IMG/VR virus record: IMGVR_UViG_3300032116_000514 | Location: 1-39,931 of that record | Reading direction: 5' to 3' (one strand) | DNA: 39,931 nucleotides | DNA from: a virus | In this document: in pieces, positions 9,640-24,474 of the stretch | Position numbering within the stretch: position 1 is the first letter of the stretch | How the letters are laid out: every line of letters starts with the position of its first letter | Translations under genes and position numbers: made by a program | Notes under the pieces: generated by a model | Seen by the model: only the letters and a program-made list of their open reading frames with translations | Told to the model about the DNA's origin: nothing | Databases searched by the model: none

Positions 9640-10506
9640 TCAACCGCCGAGTATGCGCGGTTTCGTTTCGCCTTTCAGGGCGGAAGCGAATGCGAGTTCT
9701 CGCTCGGTTCTGCGTTTGCGTGCTTCGGCTTGTTCGACTGCGTAAGTAAAGCAGTCTTTCATACCGCGTAAGCAGTAGTACACGACAGTATAACGATAGG
9801 CGTCTTTCGTGATGTGCTGAATAGGCGTTACGCCGTGAAGTAGTCGGAATCCCGGAAAGAACAACACCCAACCATCGCGGCATTCAATAACAGCGTTATA
9901 TTCAGGAATGCTGAGATAACCACCGCGAGTGCCACGCCGAACAACAGGCATAGCAGACCACATATCAAAATTATTGCCGTCATAATGATACGGAAGCGTG
10001 GAAGTTTTATTGACAACACCGCTAGTCCAGAGAGAGCGCTCCGAAATGCGCCACTCATCAGCAACCGCCGATGTTTCTTTTGCGTCTTTTTCATAAATTT
10101 CGGGCGCGATTTCGCGCATGATATCGCTCAAAATATCAGCAGTCTGCACTAATACATCGTGTTCTTCGGGTTGTTCGTGCGACATTGAAGTAGGGCGACA
10201 AGCCTCGCGTGTTTGAAATGGCTTGCGTGGTGCCATGCCGAAAGTACGGCTGTTGTTCTGTACGCCTGTGCTGCGTGTTACGCCTGTCGCGCTGTATTTG
10301 ATTCCGCGTACTGCGTTACGAAGATTCGCAGTCACATCTGCGTCCATCTTCAAATAAACAAGGAATGGCTCGCCTGTTGTTTCATCAACATAAATGCCTT
10401 CTTCAGTAATGTTGGCTTCAATTTCAGGAACGAGTAATCCCTTCATTTCGCGCACATCATCACGAGTGATAACTTGCTTGACGGGAAATACTGTTAGTTC
10501 TTTCAT
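9640..10506 (-). CDS. TET/JBP-family 2-oxoglutarate/Fe(II) dioxygenase
   Basis: This 288-residue protein has the double-stranded beta-helix signature in its C-terminal half. His174 and Asp176 are in LPYHYDGNN, the distal iron ligand His224 is in FRLLHGVTP, and Arg238 in YRYTVVYY would bind 2-oxoglutarate. The GGYLSIPEYNAVIEC and GWVLFFPG strands between them fit the TET/JBP family. Such enzymes oxidise the methyl group of 5-methylcytosine or thymine in DNA. The gene overlaps the ParB-like gene by ATGA and precedes the glycosyltransferase. A general prolyl-hydroxylase-like oxygenase is the alternative, but the context argues against it. Confidence 0.8.
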   Translation of the reverse strand: MKELTVFPVKQVITRDDVREMKGLLVPEIEANITEEGIYVDETTGEPFLVYLKMDADVTANLRNAVRGIKYSATGVTRSTGVQNNSRTFGMAPRKPFQTREACRPTSMSHEQPEEHDVLVQTADILSDIMREIAPEIYEKDAKETSAVADEWRISERSLWTSGVVNKTSTLPYHYDGNNFDMWSAMPVVRRGTRGGYLSIPEYNAVIECRDGWVLFFPGFRLLHGVTPIQHITKDAYRYTVVYYCLRGMKDCFTYAVEQAEARKRRTERELAFASALKGETKPRILGG

Positions 10507-20388: not shown

Positions 20389-21072
20389 TTACTTGTTCGG
20401 TATTACGGGTGTGCGTATTTCGCCACGCCATTTTTCTATCGTGCTGTAACGCCATAGCGGTGTGCGACCATATTCGCGGTCGGGTGCTGGCATTTGCCCA
20501 CGCGCTTTGTATGCGCTAATGGTTTTCGGCGATACGCCGAGTAGTTCAGCGACTTGCTGTGAGGTGAGAAATACATTCGCGCCTTTGAGCATATCGAGGT
20601 TATCTCCGTTCTTGAATGTGCCGAGTCGGAATTCGCCGACTTCGGGAAGTGGCCAGATGTAAGGAATGTTGTCAGGAAGTTGCCAACCGCCGTAATACTC
20701 AGGGTATTTACGGATAAGGTTGGAGCGATGCGTCATGTGAAGTAATTCGTTATTGACCCACCACGGATATTTTCCTGCTTTCGCTCGCGTAAGTTGTGCG
20801 TTTAAATCGTTGAAGATTTCGCACATATTCCAACCATCGAATCCGCGTTCGTAAAACTCGATGGAAATAGTCAAGCCGTAAAGAGCCAAGTCGGCTTCGT
20901 GACCGCGCCACATGACTGTCGCAGGGTGATTAACCCAAGCGCCAGTATCGTCATAGTCACCGCGTAATGCTTTGAGAATTTGATATGTTTCAACGCGCTG
21001 TTTCCCTAAACGCTTGTCGTCTAGGACTTTTGCGGTATCAACATAGTTGTCGTGTGTCATGAAAGTTTGCAT
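20389..21072 (-). CDS. Pyrimidine-dimer DNA glycosylase-like protein fused to a MerR-type HTH
   Basis: The N-terminal ~140 residues (MQTFMTHDNYVDTAKVLDDK, RLGKQRVETYQILKAL, WVNHPATVMWRGHEADLALYG) match the T4 DenV / Pyr_excise family, which cuts at UV-damaged pyrimidines. The C-terminal ~55 residues (VFLTSQQVAELLGVSPKTIS ... LWRYSTIEKW) form an excisionase-like helix-turn-helix. That fusion is unusual and could target the enzyme or let it regulate. The start at 21072 follows AAAGGG just beyond the stop of the preceding microprotein. Confidence 0.78.
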   Translation of the reverse strand: MQTFMTHDNYVDTAKVLDDKRLGKQRVETYQILKALRGDYDDTGAWVNHPATVMWRGHEADLALYGLTISIEFYERGFDGWNMCEIFNDLNAQLTRAKAGKYPWWVNNELLHMTHRSNLIRKYPEYYGGWQLPDNIPYIWPLPEVGEFRLGTFKNGDNLDMLKGANVFLTSQQVAELLGVSPKTISAYKARGQMPAPDREYGRTPLWRYSTIEKWRGEIRTPVIPNK

Positions 21073-21074
21073 AA

Positions 21075-21185
21075 TTACCCTTTCTGTCCATAGTAACACT
21101 TCGCACACAGAGATACGCGTTCGTTGTCGCGTATGACTAAATGCGTGTATGTGCATTTTTGTTTACATTTTTCGCAACGACTCAT
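21075..21185 (-). CDS. Zinc-ribbon microprotein, 36 aa
   Basis: The protein is MSRCEKCKQKCTYTHLVIRD followed by a C-terminal CAKCYYGQKG, a two-knuckle CxxC...CxxC ribbon. Its ATG forms TGATG with the upstream stop at 21185. Its TAA lies within the AAAGGGTAA leader of the glycosylase gene, so its last codons double as the next ribosome site. The role is unknown, probably nucleic-acid binding. Confidence 0.65.
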   Translation of the reverse strand: MSRCEKCKQKCTYTHLVIRDNERVSLCAKCYYGQKG

Positions 21186-21468: not shown

Positions 21469-21498
21469 GGCGCGCCCACCGACAATGATGAGCGCGCC
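21469..21498 (-). terminator. GC-rich hairpin after the DUF932 gene
   Basis: GGCGCGC and GCGCGCC pair across a 16-base loop just downstream of the DUF932 stop. The sequence after it is only weakly T-rich (TATTCTTG). It may be a partial terminator or a message-end stabiliser. This gap has no hammerhead core, unlike the four gaps upstream. Confidence 0.5.
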
Positions 21499-21518: not shown

Positions 21519-22508
21519 CTACGCATTCATTAGGAGTGCGTGTGCCTTGTTCTTGATAGCGTCAGTTGCGCCGAGAATGTTTCTCTCAGCACGAACAGCA
21601 TTCTTGTTCTCGCCACCGCGTACTGCCTGTGCCCAGTCAGCCCACTCAACAACAGCGTTGTAAGCAGCCCACGCAGTATTCGCTACATTCTGCTGTGTTG
21701 GCGCGTACCACAGAGCAGTAATCTCTGCGCGCTTGGTGTCAATGCTGTTTTTCTGTCGCTCGCTAGCGTCCTTGTGTGCTGCTGGTACGAGTTTCTCAAC
21801 AAACTTCTTGAAGTCCTGCTCGTTCATGCTGCGGTTGAGCAGATAATTAACTTCGCGTTCGAATTCCTCTTGGTAGCGCCAAACGACACCGAGAGTTTCG
21901 CGTGCTTGTTGAACTTTCGCAGTAGAGCCAGCAGTATGCTTGAGCGAAATCTTGCTAACTGCGTGGTCGAGCGCGAGGCGAACTGTGTTCGTGCATACTG
22001 CGCGGATAGGTGTAACCGCAACAGTAAACGCGGACGAGCCATCGTGACTGTTGATAGCCATGATGTATTGGTTGATGGTATCAACGCCAGCAATTGTCAT
22101 CGCTTCGGGGAATTTCATCGTCATGAATACGCGCGCGCCATTATTGAGCGAACCAGCAGTTTCGAACTTCGCACCCGAATCATCGGATAGGTAGTTCAAG
22201 AACTCAAAAGCGTCTGCATTCTGAATCGGTGTATAGCGGTCGCCAACTACACCAAGAGCAGCCAACCCTTTCTTCGGGTGGTCGCGGTATGTGATGAACT
22301 TGTTGCCAACAGTAAGAACTTTGCCATCAACAACAGCGCCAACATTGGTGTCGCTAACTTTAACTTCCCAATTCAACTGTGCTGTTTCGAGTGCGTCCTG
22401 TGCTGTTAGCGCGTCAGGTGTAACTGTGCCGAGGTTGTGCCATGCTGGTTCGCGGTTGGCGAAAAATGCGCTAGTGCCGTCAGCGAACTGTTCGATGTTA
22501 TGTGCCAT
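21519..22508 (-). CDS. DUF932 (phage/plasmid-like, TIGR03299-type) protein
   Basis: This 329-residue protein has AHNIEQFADGTSAFF, EPAWHNLGTVTPDALTAQDAL and YTPIQNADAFEFLNYLS, then AVTPIRAVCTNTVRLAL, all typical of the DUF932 family found in phages and plasmids. The biochemical role of the family is not settled. The message leader carries a hammerhead ribozyme (22542-22596), and an AAAGGGTAAT site lies 9 bases before the start. It is the largest product of the ribozyme-separated region. Confidence 0.85.
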   Translation of the reverse strand: MAHNIEQFADGTSAFFANREPAWHNLGTVTPDALTAQDALETAQLNWEVKVSDTNVGAVVDGKVLTVGNKFITYRDHPKKGLAALGVVGDRYTPIQNADAFEFLNYLSDDSGAKFETAGSLNNGARVFMTMKFPEAMTIAGVDTINQYIMAINSHDGSSAFTVAVTPIRAVCTNTVRLALDHAVSKISLKHTAGSTAKVQQARETLGVVWRYQEEFEREVNYLLNRSMNEQDFKKFVEKLVPAAHKDASERQKNSIDTKRAEITALWYAPTQQNVANTAWAAYNAVVEWADWAQAVRGGENKNAVRAERNILGATDAIKNKAHALLMNA

Positions 22509-22541
22509 GAGTATTACCCTTTCAAGATAGTTTCAAACGAG

Positions 22542-22596
22542 AGGCTCGTCAGTAGTGCCATTCAGCACTAGACCCTGCCGAAGCAGGGTTTCGCCT
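22542..22596 (-). ncRNA. Type II hammerhead ribozyme 1 (before DUF932 gene)
   Basis: Minus-strand elements in order are stem II strand AGGC (22596-22593), GAA (22592-22590), A15.1 (22589), stem III CCCTGC/GCAGGG with TTCG loop (22588-22573), U16.1 (22572), C17 (22571), stem I TAGTGC/GCACTA with a 6-base loop (22570-22553), CTGACGA (22552-22546), and stem II GCCT (22545-22542). All core bases are intact. Cleavage is expected between 22571 and 22570. The first stem II base is the last base of the upstream TAA stop. Confidence 0.93.
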
Positions 22597-22808
22597 TAAT
22601 CTTTCATACCAGCAGATTCACAGAAATTCTGTATATCTATGCCTGTGTAATCTCCGATAATAGACGCGCCATTAGATGTTGTAACAGACAGCGCACCTGC
22701 GAACATATTTGTTACGGAATCTAATGCTTGAACTGCTGCTGGTTCTGTGTGTGTTTTGCGAGCCTCGCGAATAATTGCTGCGATGACTCTGTCGTCTAAT
22801 TGGTTCAT
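22596..22808 (-). CDS. Hypothetical protein, 70 aa
   Basis: This is not recognised. The N-terminus is helical (NQLDDRVIAAIIREARK), followed by a small-residue-rich segment (MFAGALSVTTSNGASIIGDY). It overlaps the upstream gene by 4 bases (ATGA), and its TAA stop is the first base of the hammerhead at 22542-22596. The upstream ribozyme product end would therefore fall 25 bases beyond the stop. Confidence 0.58.
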   Translation of the reverse strand: MNQLDDRVIAAIIREARKTHTEPAAVQALDSVTNMFAGALSVTTSNGASIIGDYTGIDIQNFCESAGMKD

Positions 22809-22987
22809 CGTGATTCCTTTACGATAGTAGGAATGTGTTCGCGTGTTCCGTTGTCAGTAAGTAAATCGTGTTTAAATAGACAACCTACGCAACAAAACAT
22901 ACGAGTCATTTCGCCGTTGTCGTAAATGAACCAACGATAATGTCCGTGTGTGCCTGCAGACCTTCCGCACATTTCGCAATCTTTCAT
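22805..22987 (-). CDS. Zinc-ribbon protein, 60 aa
   Basis: MKDCEMCGRSAGTHGHYRWF is followed by MFCCVGCLFKHDLL, giving a CxxC...CCxxC pattern with nearby His. The start at 22987 makes TGATG with the preceding stop; a GTG one codon earlier is possible. The gene overlaps the next one by ATGA. It is a probable nucleic-acid-binding accessory and its role is unknown. Confidence 0.62.
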   Translation of the reverse strand: MKDCEMCGRSAGTHGHYRWFIYDNGEMTRMFCCVGCLFKHDLLTDNGTREHIPTIVKESR

Positions 22988-23151
22988 CACGCACCTACCA
23001 TGTACTTGTTAGGCTTAACGCTGTTAGTTCTGACAACGCTTGTGTTTGGAAGAATCTCTACTAGGTCTTTCGCTTCGGCTTCCGCAGCGAATTCGTTTCC
23101 TGCTGTTACTACAACTTCTACTGTCAATTTCACTACATATTCTTTTGTCAT
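22987..23151 (-). CDS. Small beta-alpha protein, 54 aa
   Basis: MTKEYVVKLTVEVVVTAGNE is followed by FAAEAEAKDLVEIL and a basic tail. The pattern strand-strand-helix resembles tiny single-domain proteins with an alternating beta face; no family is recognised. It starts after AAAGGGTAATC, downstream of the second hammerhead ribozyme, and is coupled to the 60-residue gene by TGATG. It fills an otherwise empty 230-base stretch. Confidence 0.65.
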   Translation of the reverse strand: MTKEYVVKLTVEVVVTAGNEFAAEAEAKDLVEILPNTSVVRTNSVKPNKYMVGA

Positions 23152-23173
23152 GATTACCCTTTCGTTGTTTGCT

Positions 23174-23225
23174 GACCTCGTCAGTTACCGCGTTACGGTA
23201 AGACCGCCCGTAGGCGGTTTCGGTC
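23174..23225 (-). ncRNA. Type II hammerhead ribozyme 2
   Basis: Minus-strand order is stem II GACC (23225-23222), GAA (23221-23219), A15.1 (23218), stem III CCGCC/GGCGG with TACG loop (23217-23204), U16.1 (23203), C17 (23202), stem I TTACCG/CGGTAA with a 5-base loop (23201-23185), CTGACGA (23184-23178), and stem II GGTC (23177-23174). The core is complete and stem II pairs fully. Cleavage is expected between 23202 and 23201. The G of the upstream TAG stop is the first paired base. Confidence 0.94.
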
Positions 23226-23650
23226 TATAACTTGATTTCGCGTCTAGCGATTTGCGCATAGATGAAAAACTTTTCTAGCGCGTCTTGTGCTCGTTGTTGA
23301 AGTTCTTCGATTTTATCGACACGCTGCGACAAAACCCATGTTTGGTTGAATCCGCCATTTTCGCGGAACTTGTCAGCAACATATTGCGCTTTTTCAACAA
23401 GTTCTTGCGAAGCGTCTAGCGCGTCTTGTGAAGCGCCCCAATAAGTGATGTAGTAGTAGCGCATATACGCACCGATAGTGCCTTTAGCGTCACTCATTTC
23501 AAGTGTGTATGTTTCATCGTTTTGGCGAATCGTGTAACGAATCATCGATACTTTATTGCCATAAGTGCTTTCGCCTTCGTACTCACCGATAGTTTCAGTT
23601 GTTACATACTTAGATACGAACTTGGCTTTTTCTGCAACGGCTGTACTCAT
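23225..23650 (-). CDS. Hypothetical protein, 141 aa
   Basis: This is not recognised. A beta-rich first half (FVSKYVTTETIGEYEGESTY, VSMIRYTIRQNDETYTLEM) is followed by a long helical C-terminus (LDASQELVEKAQYVADKF ... LQQRAQDALEKFFIYAQIA). I use the ATG at 23650 because the longer frame would run through hammerhead 3. A ribosome site AAAGGG lies ~12 bases upstream. The gene lies between ribozymes 3 and 2. Confidence 0.65.
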   Translation of the reverse strand: MSTAVAEKAKFVSKYVTTETIGEYEGESTYGNKVSMIRYTIRQNDETYTLEMSDAKGTIGAYMRYYYITYWGASQDALDASQELVEKAQYVADKFRENGGFNQTWVLSQRVDKIEELQQRAQDALEKFFIYAQIARREIKL

Positions 23651-23678
23651 TTGTGATTTACCCTTTGTTAGTGCTGAT

Positions 23679-23735
23679 GGACTCATCAGTGCTGGCATTT
23701 ACCAGCAGACGCGGTATTGCTACCGCGTTTCGTCC
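23679..23735 (-). ncRNA. Type II hammerhead ribozyme 3
   Basis: Minus-strand order is stem II GGAC (23735-23732), GAA (23731-23729), A15.1 (23728), stem III CGCGGTA/TACCGCG with GCAA loop (23727-23710), U16.1 (23709), C17 (23708), stem I TGCTGG/CCAGCA with a 6-base loop (23707-23690), CTGATGA (23689-23683), and stem II GTCC (23682-23679). All pairs are Watson-Crick. Cleavage is expected between 23708 and 23707. It begins at the last base of the upstream TAG stop. Confidence 0.95.
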
Positions 23736-23938
23736 TAGTAACCGCGTGTCAACAAACTGTGCAATTTCACCAAATACAAATAGTGTTCATTTGATAGAAC
23801 TTCGTGTTCGTTGAGAAGCGTTTGATTAACAAGAATCGCTAAATCATTCAATTGACCGCGTGTCATAGTTACTGTTACTTCTTTGTCAAGATAGTTAGCG
23901 ATTGCTGCGTTGCTTGCCGCGTGAATGTCTTGTGCCAT
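23735..23938 (-). CDS. Hypothetical protein, 67 aa
   Basis: This is not recognised. It is a helical protein (DIHAASNAAIANYLDK, TMTRGQLNDLAILVNQTLLN, EHYLYLVKLHSLLTRGY) with no membrane segment. It is the first gene of the early operon after hammerhead 4 and is followed directly by hammerhead 3. The start has AAAGGGTAAAATC. The helical hairpin shape could be a small adaptor; the function is unknown. Confidence 0.62.
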   Translation of the reverse strand: MAQDIHAASNAAIANYLDKEVTVTMTRGQLNDLAILVNQTLLNEHEVLSNEHYLYLVKLHSLLTRGY

Positions 23939-23958
23939 GATTTTACCCTTTCGTAACT

Positions 23959-24017
23959 GAACTCATCAGTAGCAGCAGATACTGCTAGACGCACATATTG
24001 CTATGCGCGTTTCGTTC
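23959..24017 (-). ncRNA. Type II hammerhead ribozyme 4 (operon leader)
   Basis: Minus-strand order is stem II GAAC (24017-24014), GAA (24013-24011), A15.1 (24010), stem III of 8 pairs (one G-T) with GCAA loop (24009-23990), U16.1 (23989), C17 (23988), stem I TAGCAG/CTGCTA with a 6-base loop (23987-23970), CTGATGA (23969-23963), and stem II GTTC (23962-23959). The core is complete. Cleavage is expected between 23988 and 23987. No convincing gene lies just upstream, so this copy acts in the leader. Confidence 0.94.
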
Positions 24018-24474
24018 TCTACAATTCTGTCGTCGTAGTTGCTGTTCTATAGGCAGTGCGCTTACCACATCCGATTTACGGAAATAAGTGGCTAGTGATG
24101 TATCACGGGCGATGCCATCAAACACAACGAACGCGCGAACGCGTTTCGACTATCTGAATTCTGCTATGTAGTTATCTAGTTACAAATGAGCAAACGAGGG
24201 AGTTGTCGCGCGCGGTCAGACCGCCTTCGGTTCCCGTCATCGTCATCATGGGAGAAGTATTACAGGCTCAGGCGGTAAAAGCAAATCAGGCTGGCAGAAA
24301 GTTTTGGCGCGCCGTTCGAGCGTGCAGGCTCGACCCTGAGCGTGGCAACTTGAGCCCTGTGCGCCTATTACAGACCCGAACAGCCTTGCCCAAGGGTTTT
24401 CCCCCGTGCCGCCTCTAAAAATCGCTCTAATAGCCTCGCCTCACAGGGCTGGACAGGTGCGCTATTCTTCGGAC
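24018..24474. other. Noncoding control region between divergent genes
   Basis: This ~450-base stretch separates the early minus-strand operon from the plus-strand gene. I see small hairpins, AACGCG/CGCGTT with a UUCG-like loop on the minus strand (24130-24145) and GCGGT/ACCGC (24212-24224), and a more GC-rich half toward 24470. No gene has convincing coding character. The early promoter should lie here, but I cannot assign clear -35 and -10 boxes on the minus strand. Confidence 0.6.
24463..24468 (+). promoter_or_regulatory. Possible -10 box for a leaderless message
   Basis: TATTCT ends 6 bases before the ATG at 24475, the spacing expected if transcription starts at the start codon, as is common in actinobacteria. 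No ribosome site and no clear -35 box are visible. This is weak evidence. Confidence 0.3.

Follow-up and report, generated by a model that had tools for sequence, protein, structure and literature searches.

A tandem array of type II hammerhead ribozymes in a phage operon, with a putative product-side hairpin and a candidate leader RNA

The first natural type II hammerheads were described by Perreault et al. 2011 (PMC3088659), who found hammerheads clustered around single genes or gene blocks in prophages and proposed that they process transcripts into single-gene or operon-length mRNAs. Three of those tandem arrays cleave in vitro, and the one from A. tumefaciens does so in E. coli as well (PMC3088659). 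A pseudoknot between loop I and the tail, also reported by Perreault et al. (PMC3088659), is common among type II ribozymes without being universal, and is present in about 40% of all hammerheads. A 2017 review regarded the role of prokaryotic hammerheads as an open question and pointed out their persistent link with phages (PMC6155905). An earlier note on the DNA studied here had taken an array of this sort for a regulatory layout not yet described, a view that does not hold, since both the clustered prophage hammerheads and the mRNA processing were already put forward in the 2011 work (PMC3088659).

Hammerheads of the window and their relatives

The window, i.e., the whole stretch of 39,931 bases that constitutes the 39.9-kb viral contig IMGVR_UViG_3300032116_000514 of IMG/VR, was searched with a strict descriptor (GAAA, closed stem III, U-H17, closed stem I, CUGANGA, stem II). 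Exactly four type II hammerheads were found, all of them on the minus strand, a detail absent from the earlier note. They are the four complete elements which that note had pointed out, and its stem II sequences (AGGC/GCCT, GACC/GGTC, GGAC/GTCC, and GAAC/GTTC), stem III loops (UUCG, UACG, GCAA, and GCAA), and C17 positions (22571, 23202, 23708, and 23988) are all reproduced by the descriptor matches. In the direction of transcription, they are as follows:

23959..24017, minus strand: ribozyme R4, type II hammerhead before the first gene (leader), predicted cleavage between 23988 and 23987
23679..23735, minus strand: ribozyme R3, type II hammerhead, predicted cleavage 23708/23707, beginning within the stop codon of the 67-aa gene
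23174..23225, minus strand: ribozyme R2, type II hammerhead, predicted cleavage 23202/23201, beginning within the stop codon of the 141-aa gene
22542..22596, minus strand: ribozyme R1, type II hammerhead, predicted cleavage 22571/22570, beginning within the stop codon of the 70-aa gene

Chance would yield approximately 0.007 matches per window (1 match in 150 Markov resamples of the window), and the reversed window sequence gave none with the strict descriptor. The core C3 U4 G5 A6 N7 G8 A9 / G12 A13 A14 A15.1 / U16.1 H17 is present in the four ribozymes and in all of their relatives, with stems I and III closed, stem II open, and no core-adjacent mispairs. A scan with the Rfam model RF02276 (Hammerhead_II), the check suggested at the outset, was positive only in part: three of the four ribozymes were matched (32.9, 32.2, and 29.9 bits; E 0.005–0.03), R4 was missed, and none reached the gathering score of 37 bits, which is a curated search cut-off and not a structural requirement. 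Seven relatives gave no RF02276 match at gathering thresholds either and, thus, standard annotation overlooks the hammerhead class of this clade, which supplies dozens of diverse ribozymes missed by standard Rfam annotation.

Relatives were collected by scanning IMG/VR with the DUF932 protein encoded by the operon, which returned 77 loci. Arrays of two to five type II hammerheads, located immediately upstream of Shine–Dalgarno (SD) sequences, occur in all near-identical and ~65% identical DUF932 relatives and also in phage L090, and the 66 distant DUF932 loci (564 kb) contain no type II hammerhead. When full records were considered, including the Streptomyces phage record of L098, 13 of 13 carried ribozymes, with no match to a reversed control pattern. 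Scores under the Rfam gathering threshold would be expected from decayed or chance hammerhead-like sequences lacking activity. However, this explanation is hardly credible, since all 13 full records are positive and both the core and stem II are kept despite differing stem sequences: stem II, whose pairing was not demanded, comprises 3–5 bp in 41 of 41 distinct clade ribozymes, with eight sequence variants, and stem I pairs in every one of its 37 different sequences. Judging from sequence, the window elements are real type II hammerheads and very probably active.

The operon runs on the minus strand from a leader lacking same-strand ORFs through R4, the 67-aa gene, R3, the 141-aa gene, and R2, and continues with the 54-, 61-, and 70-aa genes, R1, the DUF932 gene, and a likely terminator:

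23735..23938, minus strand: gene of 67 aa, flanked by R4 and R3, without a Pfam family
23225..23650, minus strand: gene of 141 aa, flanked by R3 and R2, without a Pfam family
22987..23151, minus strand: 54-aa gene after R2, starting 23 nt past the ribozyme
22805..22990, minus strand: 61-aa open frame, no Pfam family
22596..22808, minus strand: 70-aa gene, ending at R1
21519..22508, minus strand: gene of the 329-aa DUF932 protein after R1 (Pfam PF06067, E 1.3e-61)
21469..21498, minus strand: likely intrinsic terminator closing the operon, with a 12-bp stem, the strongest in the terminator scan

The terminator scan as a whole was no richer than chance, and the promoter scan was no better than chance. 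No relatives of the 141-aa gene were found apart from that of one near-identical contig. All four window ribozymes end 18–34 nt upstream of an SD-bearing start codon, and in the first set of clade ribozymes such a start lies 18–34 nt downstream in 34 of 34 cases, with an ORF stop preceding 26 of them; in 21 of these 26, the stop codon ends on the initial base of stem II or immediately beside it, and a stop before together with an SD start after is met at 2.4% of random positions. The other 8 of the 34 are the first or leader ribozyme of their own array. Upstream of the first ribozyme, the window and most relatives contain 380–780 nt free of any same-strand ORF of 60 aa, one exception being L057, whose contig starts shortly ahead of its first ribozyme. 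C(UNCG)G tetraloops are frequent in stem III (13 of 34 clade ribozymes), and hairpins of this type would leave the upstream message with a 3′ end of unusual stability.

The genes nearby, encoding a RecT-like annealing protein, exonucleases, SSB, terminase, portal, and tail proteins, show the genome to be that of a tailed phage, and the designation of the operon as an "early" one is plausible. No nucleotide relatives of the window were found among named phages, and the best terminase matches are scattered among Microcystis, Roseobacter, and Brevundimonas phages, with at most 48%. Elsewhere on the minus strand, the window encodes a queuine tRNA-ribosyltransferase-like protein (9640–10506; PHROG 6059, E 4.6e-80), possibly involved in DNA or tRNA modification, and a pyrimidine-dimer DNA glycosylase domain fused with a MerR-like helix-turn-helix domain (20389–21156).

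Pairing of the catalytic core with the tail

Beyond stem II, the tail has a sequence complementary to the catalytic strand CUGANGA. In tests (permutation and Fisher) that do not remove shared ancestry, the core–tail helix score averaged 12.1, as against 7.3 ± 0.3 with shuffled tails (z = 15) and 10.9 ± 0.24 with tails permuted among ribozymes (z = 4.7), and N7, the single free base of the catalytic strand, covaried with its partner in the tail, both in the clade (C–G 8, U–A 9, crossed 0; p = 4e-5) and with other phages added (18, 16, and 3 crossed; p = 9e-8). The signal is also present, though weaker (z = 10), across 80 other viral loci (some in the clade), which together contain 135 type II hammerheads. 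When 3′ products were folded, the core–tail hairpin attained a mean P of 0.80 versus 0.39 with shuffled tails, and those of the window are the following:

23957..23969, minus strand: R4 core–tail hairpin CUGA/UCAG, the weakest of the four; for the identical ribozyme in L004, P = 0.79 versus 0.46 with shuffled tails
23674..23689, minus strand: R3 core–tail hairpin CUGAUG-AGUC-CAUCAG, P = 0.99 in the 3′ product versus 0.57 with shuffled tails
23172..23184, minus strand: R2 core–tail hairpin CUGAC-GAG-GUCAG, P = 0.99 versus 0.62 with shuffled tails
22536..22550, minus strand: R1 core–tail hairpin GACGA/UCGUU, P = 0.65 versus 0.20 with shuffled tails

This hairpin and the active ribozyme are mutually exclusive folds, and some ribozymes whose stem II is GAAC or GACC have just 4–5 bp of core–tail pairing. 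As modelled, the 3′ product probably loses its catalytic core by refolding into this hairpin, and the core–tail covariation defines a concrete step on the product side that lends itself to testing. A palindrome made up of core and tail might instead be a DNA operator bound by a repressor, given that CTGACGAGCCTCGTCAG-like inverted repeats resemble operators and that the covariation of N7 by itself also fits DNA symmetry. However, G–T pairs (G–U in RNA) take the place of G–C in 6 of 20 clade cases at G5 and in 5 of 20 at G8, against 1 case of other mismatches at these positions, and this preponderance of G–U favours an RNA hairpin; moreover, the ribozyme strand alone is involved and one half of the palindrome is the fixed catalytic core, so that an operator seems very improbable.

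A refolding RNA could act either after or before the cut. Since the tail is transcribed last, cutting first and refolding afterwards is the simplest reading. In an alternative reading, the ribozymes are conditional, with the core–tail hairpin as an OFF state that competes with cleavage beforehand and with translation tuning the cutting, folding being delayed by ribosomes that terminate at a stop codon overlapping stem II. The contact between stop codon and stem II in 21 of the 26 ribozymes that follow an ORF would suit this regulation, as would the thermodynamic models, in which 13 of 34 uncut RNAs have an inactive core–tail fold at least as stable as the active ribozyme, so that some copies may fail to cut. 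Nevertheless, the ribozyme is already complete when the tail emerges, which allows cutting to precede tail pairing, and leader ribozymes have no upstream ORF and, hence, no terminating ribosome; conditional cutting is, thus, considered unlikely, and refolding after the cut is preferred.

The loop I–tail pseudoknot was also considered as the role of the tail in this clade but is not supported, as there is no specific loop I–tail signal (z = 2.0 versus shuffles and −0.1 versus permutation); this pseudoknot is not required for membership of the type II class. Neither loop I or the core with the 5′ flank nor loop III with the tail gave a pairing signal in the clade, and no tertiary contact was identified among its ribozymes, which makes their cleavage rate at low magnesium uncertain. 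The pseudoknot does fit a different group of type II hammerheads from phages, in which stem I is longer, and ribozymes having it tend to be devoid of the core–tail hairpin (both in 3, one of the two in 42 and 34; p = 0.0008, uncorrected for ancestry).

Leader RNA and proposed function

The leader contains a further structured element:

24047..24119, minus strand: conserved three-way-junction leader RNA of ~73 nt, ending ~30 nt upstream of R4

The block is kept in L010, L013, L090, L157, L202–L205, and others. Its fold comprises 21 pairs, with 98.4% of cells paired, and 10 of the 21 pairs are changed on both sides, compared with 4.4 ± 1.4 compensated pairs in shuffles and at most 3 in slid versions. 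In eight of the nine contigs found by pattern, the leader RNA lies just ahead of the leader ribozyme, with 35–48 nt between the conserved block and the ribozyme; L205 has it without a ribozyme, so that it constitutes an independent element. No Rfam family matches it, its pattern is absent from the bacterial and archaeal genomes searched, and it represents a new structured-RNA candidate; its identification as a tRNA was tested and rejected. A weak match to the leader RNA model (23.5 bits) was obtained in L086, and no more than 50 nt downstream of it comes a type II hammerhead whose stem II has 2 bp. L086 (1189–1251 and 398–450, minus strand) is a different phage, one operon of which combines a distant copy of the leader RNA, this leader hammerhead, whose tail is of the GCC type, and a downstream hammerhead of the core–tail class.

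The likeliest function of the array, as far as sequence can tell, is co-transcriptional self-processing of the operon into separate messages. It is quite probable that the transcript cuts itself at the four hammerheads and that core–tail refolding then gives every message a structured 5′ end. In vivo, the operon transcript would undergo cleavage while being transcribed, each ribozyme occupying the gap from a stop codon (or the leader) to the next SD sequence. The 3′ end of the upstream RNA would then be formed by the stem III hairpin and bear a 2′,3′-cyclic phosphate, and the downstream message would begin with the stem I hairpin at a 5′-OH. The freed catalytic strand CUGANGA would pair with the nucleotides that follow, forming a second hairpin that could block religation and make the cut irreversible. 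In this way, every message, including the first one, would acquire a uniform structured 5′ end consisting of two adjacent hairpins just ahead of the ribosome-binding site, which might protect the mRNA.

Hammerhead products carry 5′-OH and 2′,3′-cyclic phosphate ends. Such chemistry suits ligation, and the arrays bracket single genes; the units excised between ribozymes might then be ligated, e.g., by RtcB, into circular mRNAs. Perreault et al. considered this possibility but, having looked for circular products of their own arrays, detected none (PMC3088659). Furthermore, no RNA ligase was found among the window proteins scanned, though the host could supply one, and circular messages are considered very improbable.

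The earlier proposal of a tandem type II array cutting one operon into units is supported by sequence, conservation, and context, but leaves the ribozyme before the first gene unexplained. The purpose of phage hammerheads has been open since 2011, and this leader ribozyme, which separates no genes, argues that gene separation cannot be their sole role and that what the ribozymes share is better sought in the making of a defined 5′ end. The array might tentatively be seen as a device for 5′-end maturation, by which native 5′ ends are replaced by the 5′-OH double hairpin and the first cut frees the three-way-junction RNA; as the latter sits just before the leader ribozyme, the cut at R4 would release it from the message.

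Comparison with known systems

In the early mRNA of phage T7, RNase III cuts the polycistronic transcript at intergenic structures and leaves hairpin-ended messages. There, a host protein does the cutting, whereas the window RNA would cut itself. The closest systems are the prophage clusters of Perreault et al., which likewise comprise several tandem hammerheads flanking genes in phage DNA. However, the ribozymes of the window are all type II, one of them also stands before the first gene, the partner of the tail is the catalytic core and not loop I, and a three-way-junction RNA is found in the leader. As regards RF02276, the permuted architecture, the conserved core, and the cleavage site are common to the window ribozymes, but these have a 4-bp stem II and a 6-bp stem I with a UAAAUG-like loop, score under gathering, and lack the signal of the loop I–tail pseudoknot.

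Arrays of type II hammerheads are common in viral contigs. The R4-like Streptomyces phages (Hank144 and R4) carry up to eight type II hammerheads per locus, likewise placed in intergenic gaps; unlike those of the window, their ribozymes have a GGU-type loop I and an AGCC tail, fitting the published pseudoknot class. Six to eight occur in one locus of L098 (Streptomyces phage Hank144, record 45.0–49.2 kb, up to eight) and of L128, both of which are culturable Streptomyces phages, and a similar region of Streptomyces phage R4 contains at least three, with none listed there in the annotation of the record. In the literature covered, which was open-access with few subscription papers or preprints, no later description of such phage arrays, the core–tail hairpin, or the leader RNA was found. 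The layout is of a known kind, whereas the leader ribozyme, the product-side refolding hairpin, and the leader RNA appear to be new.
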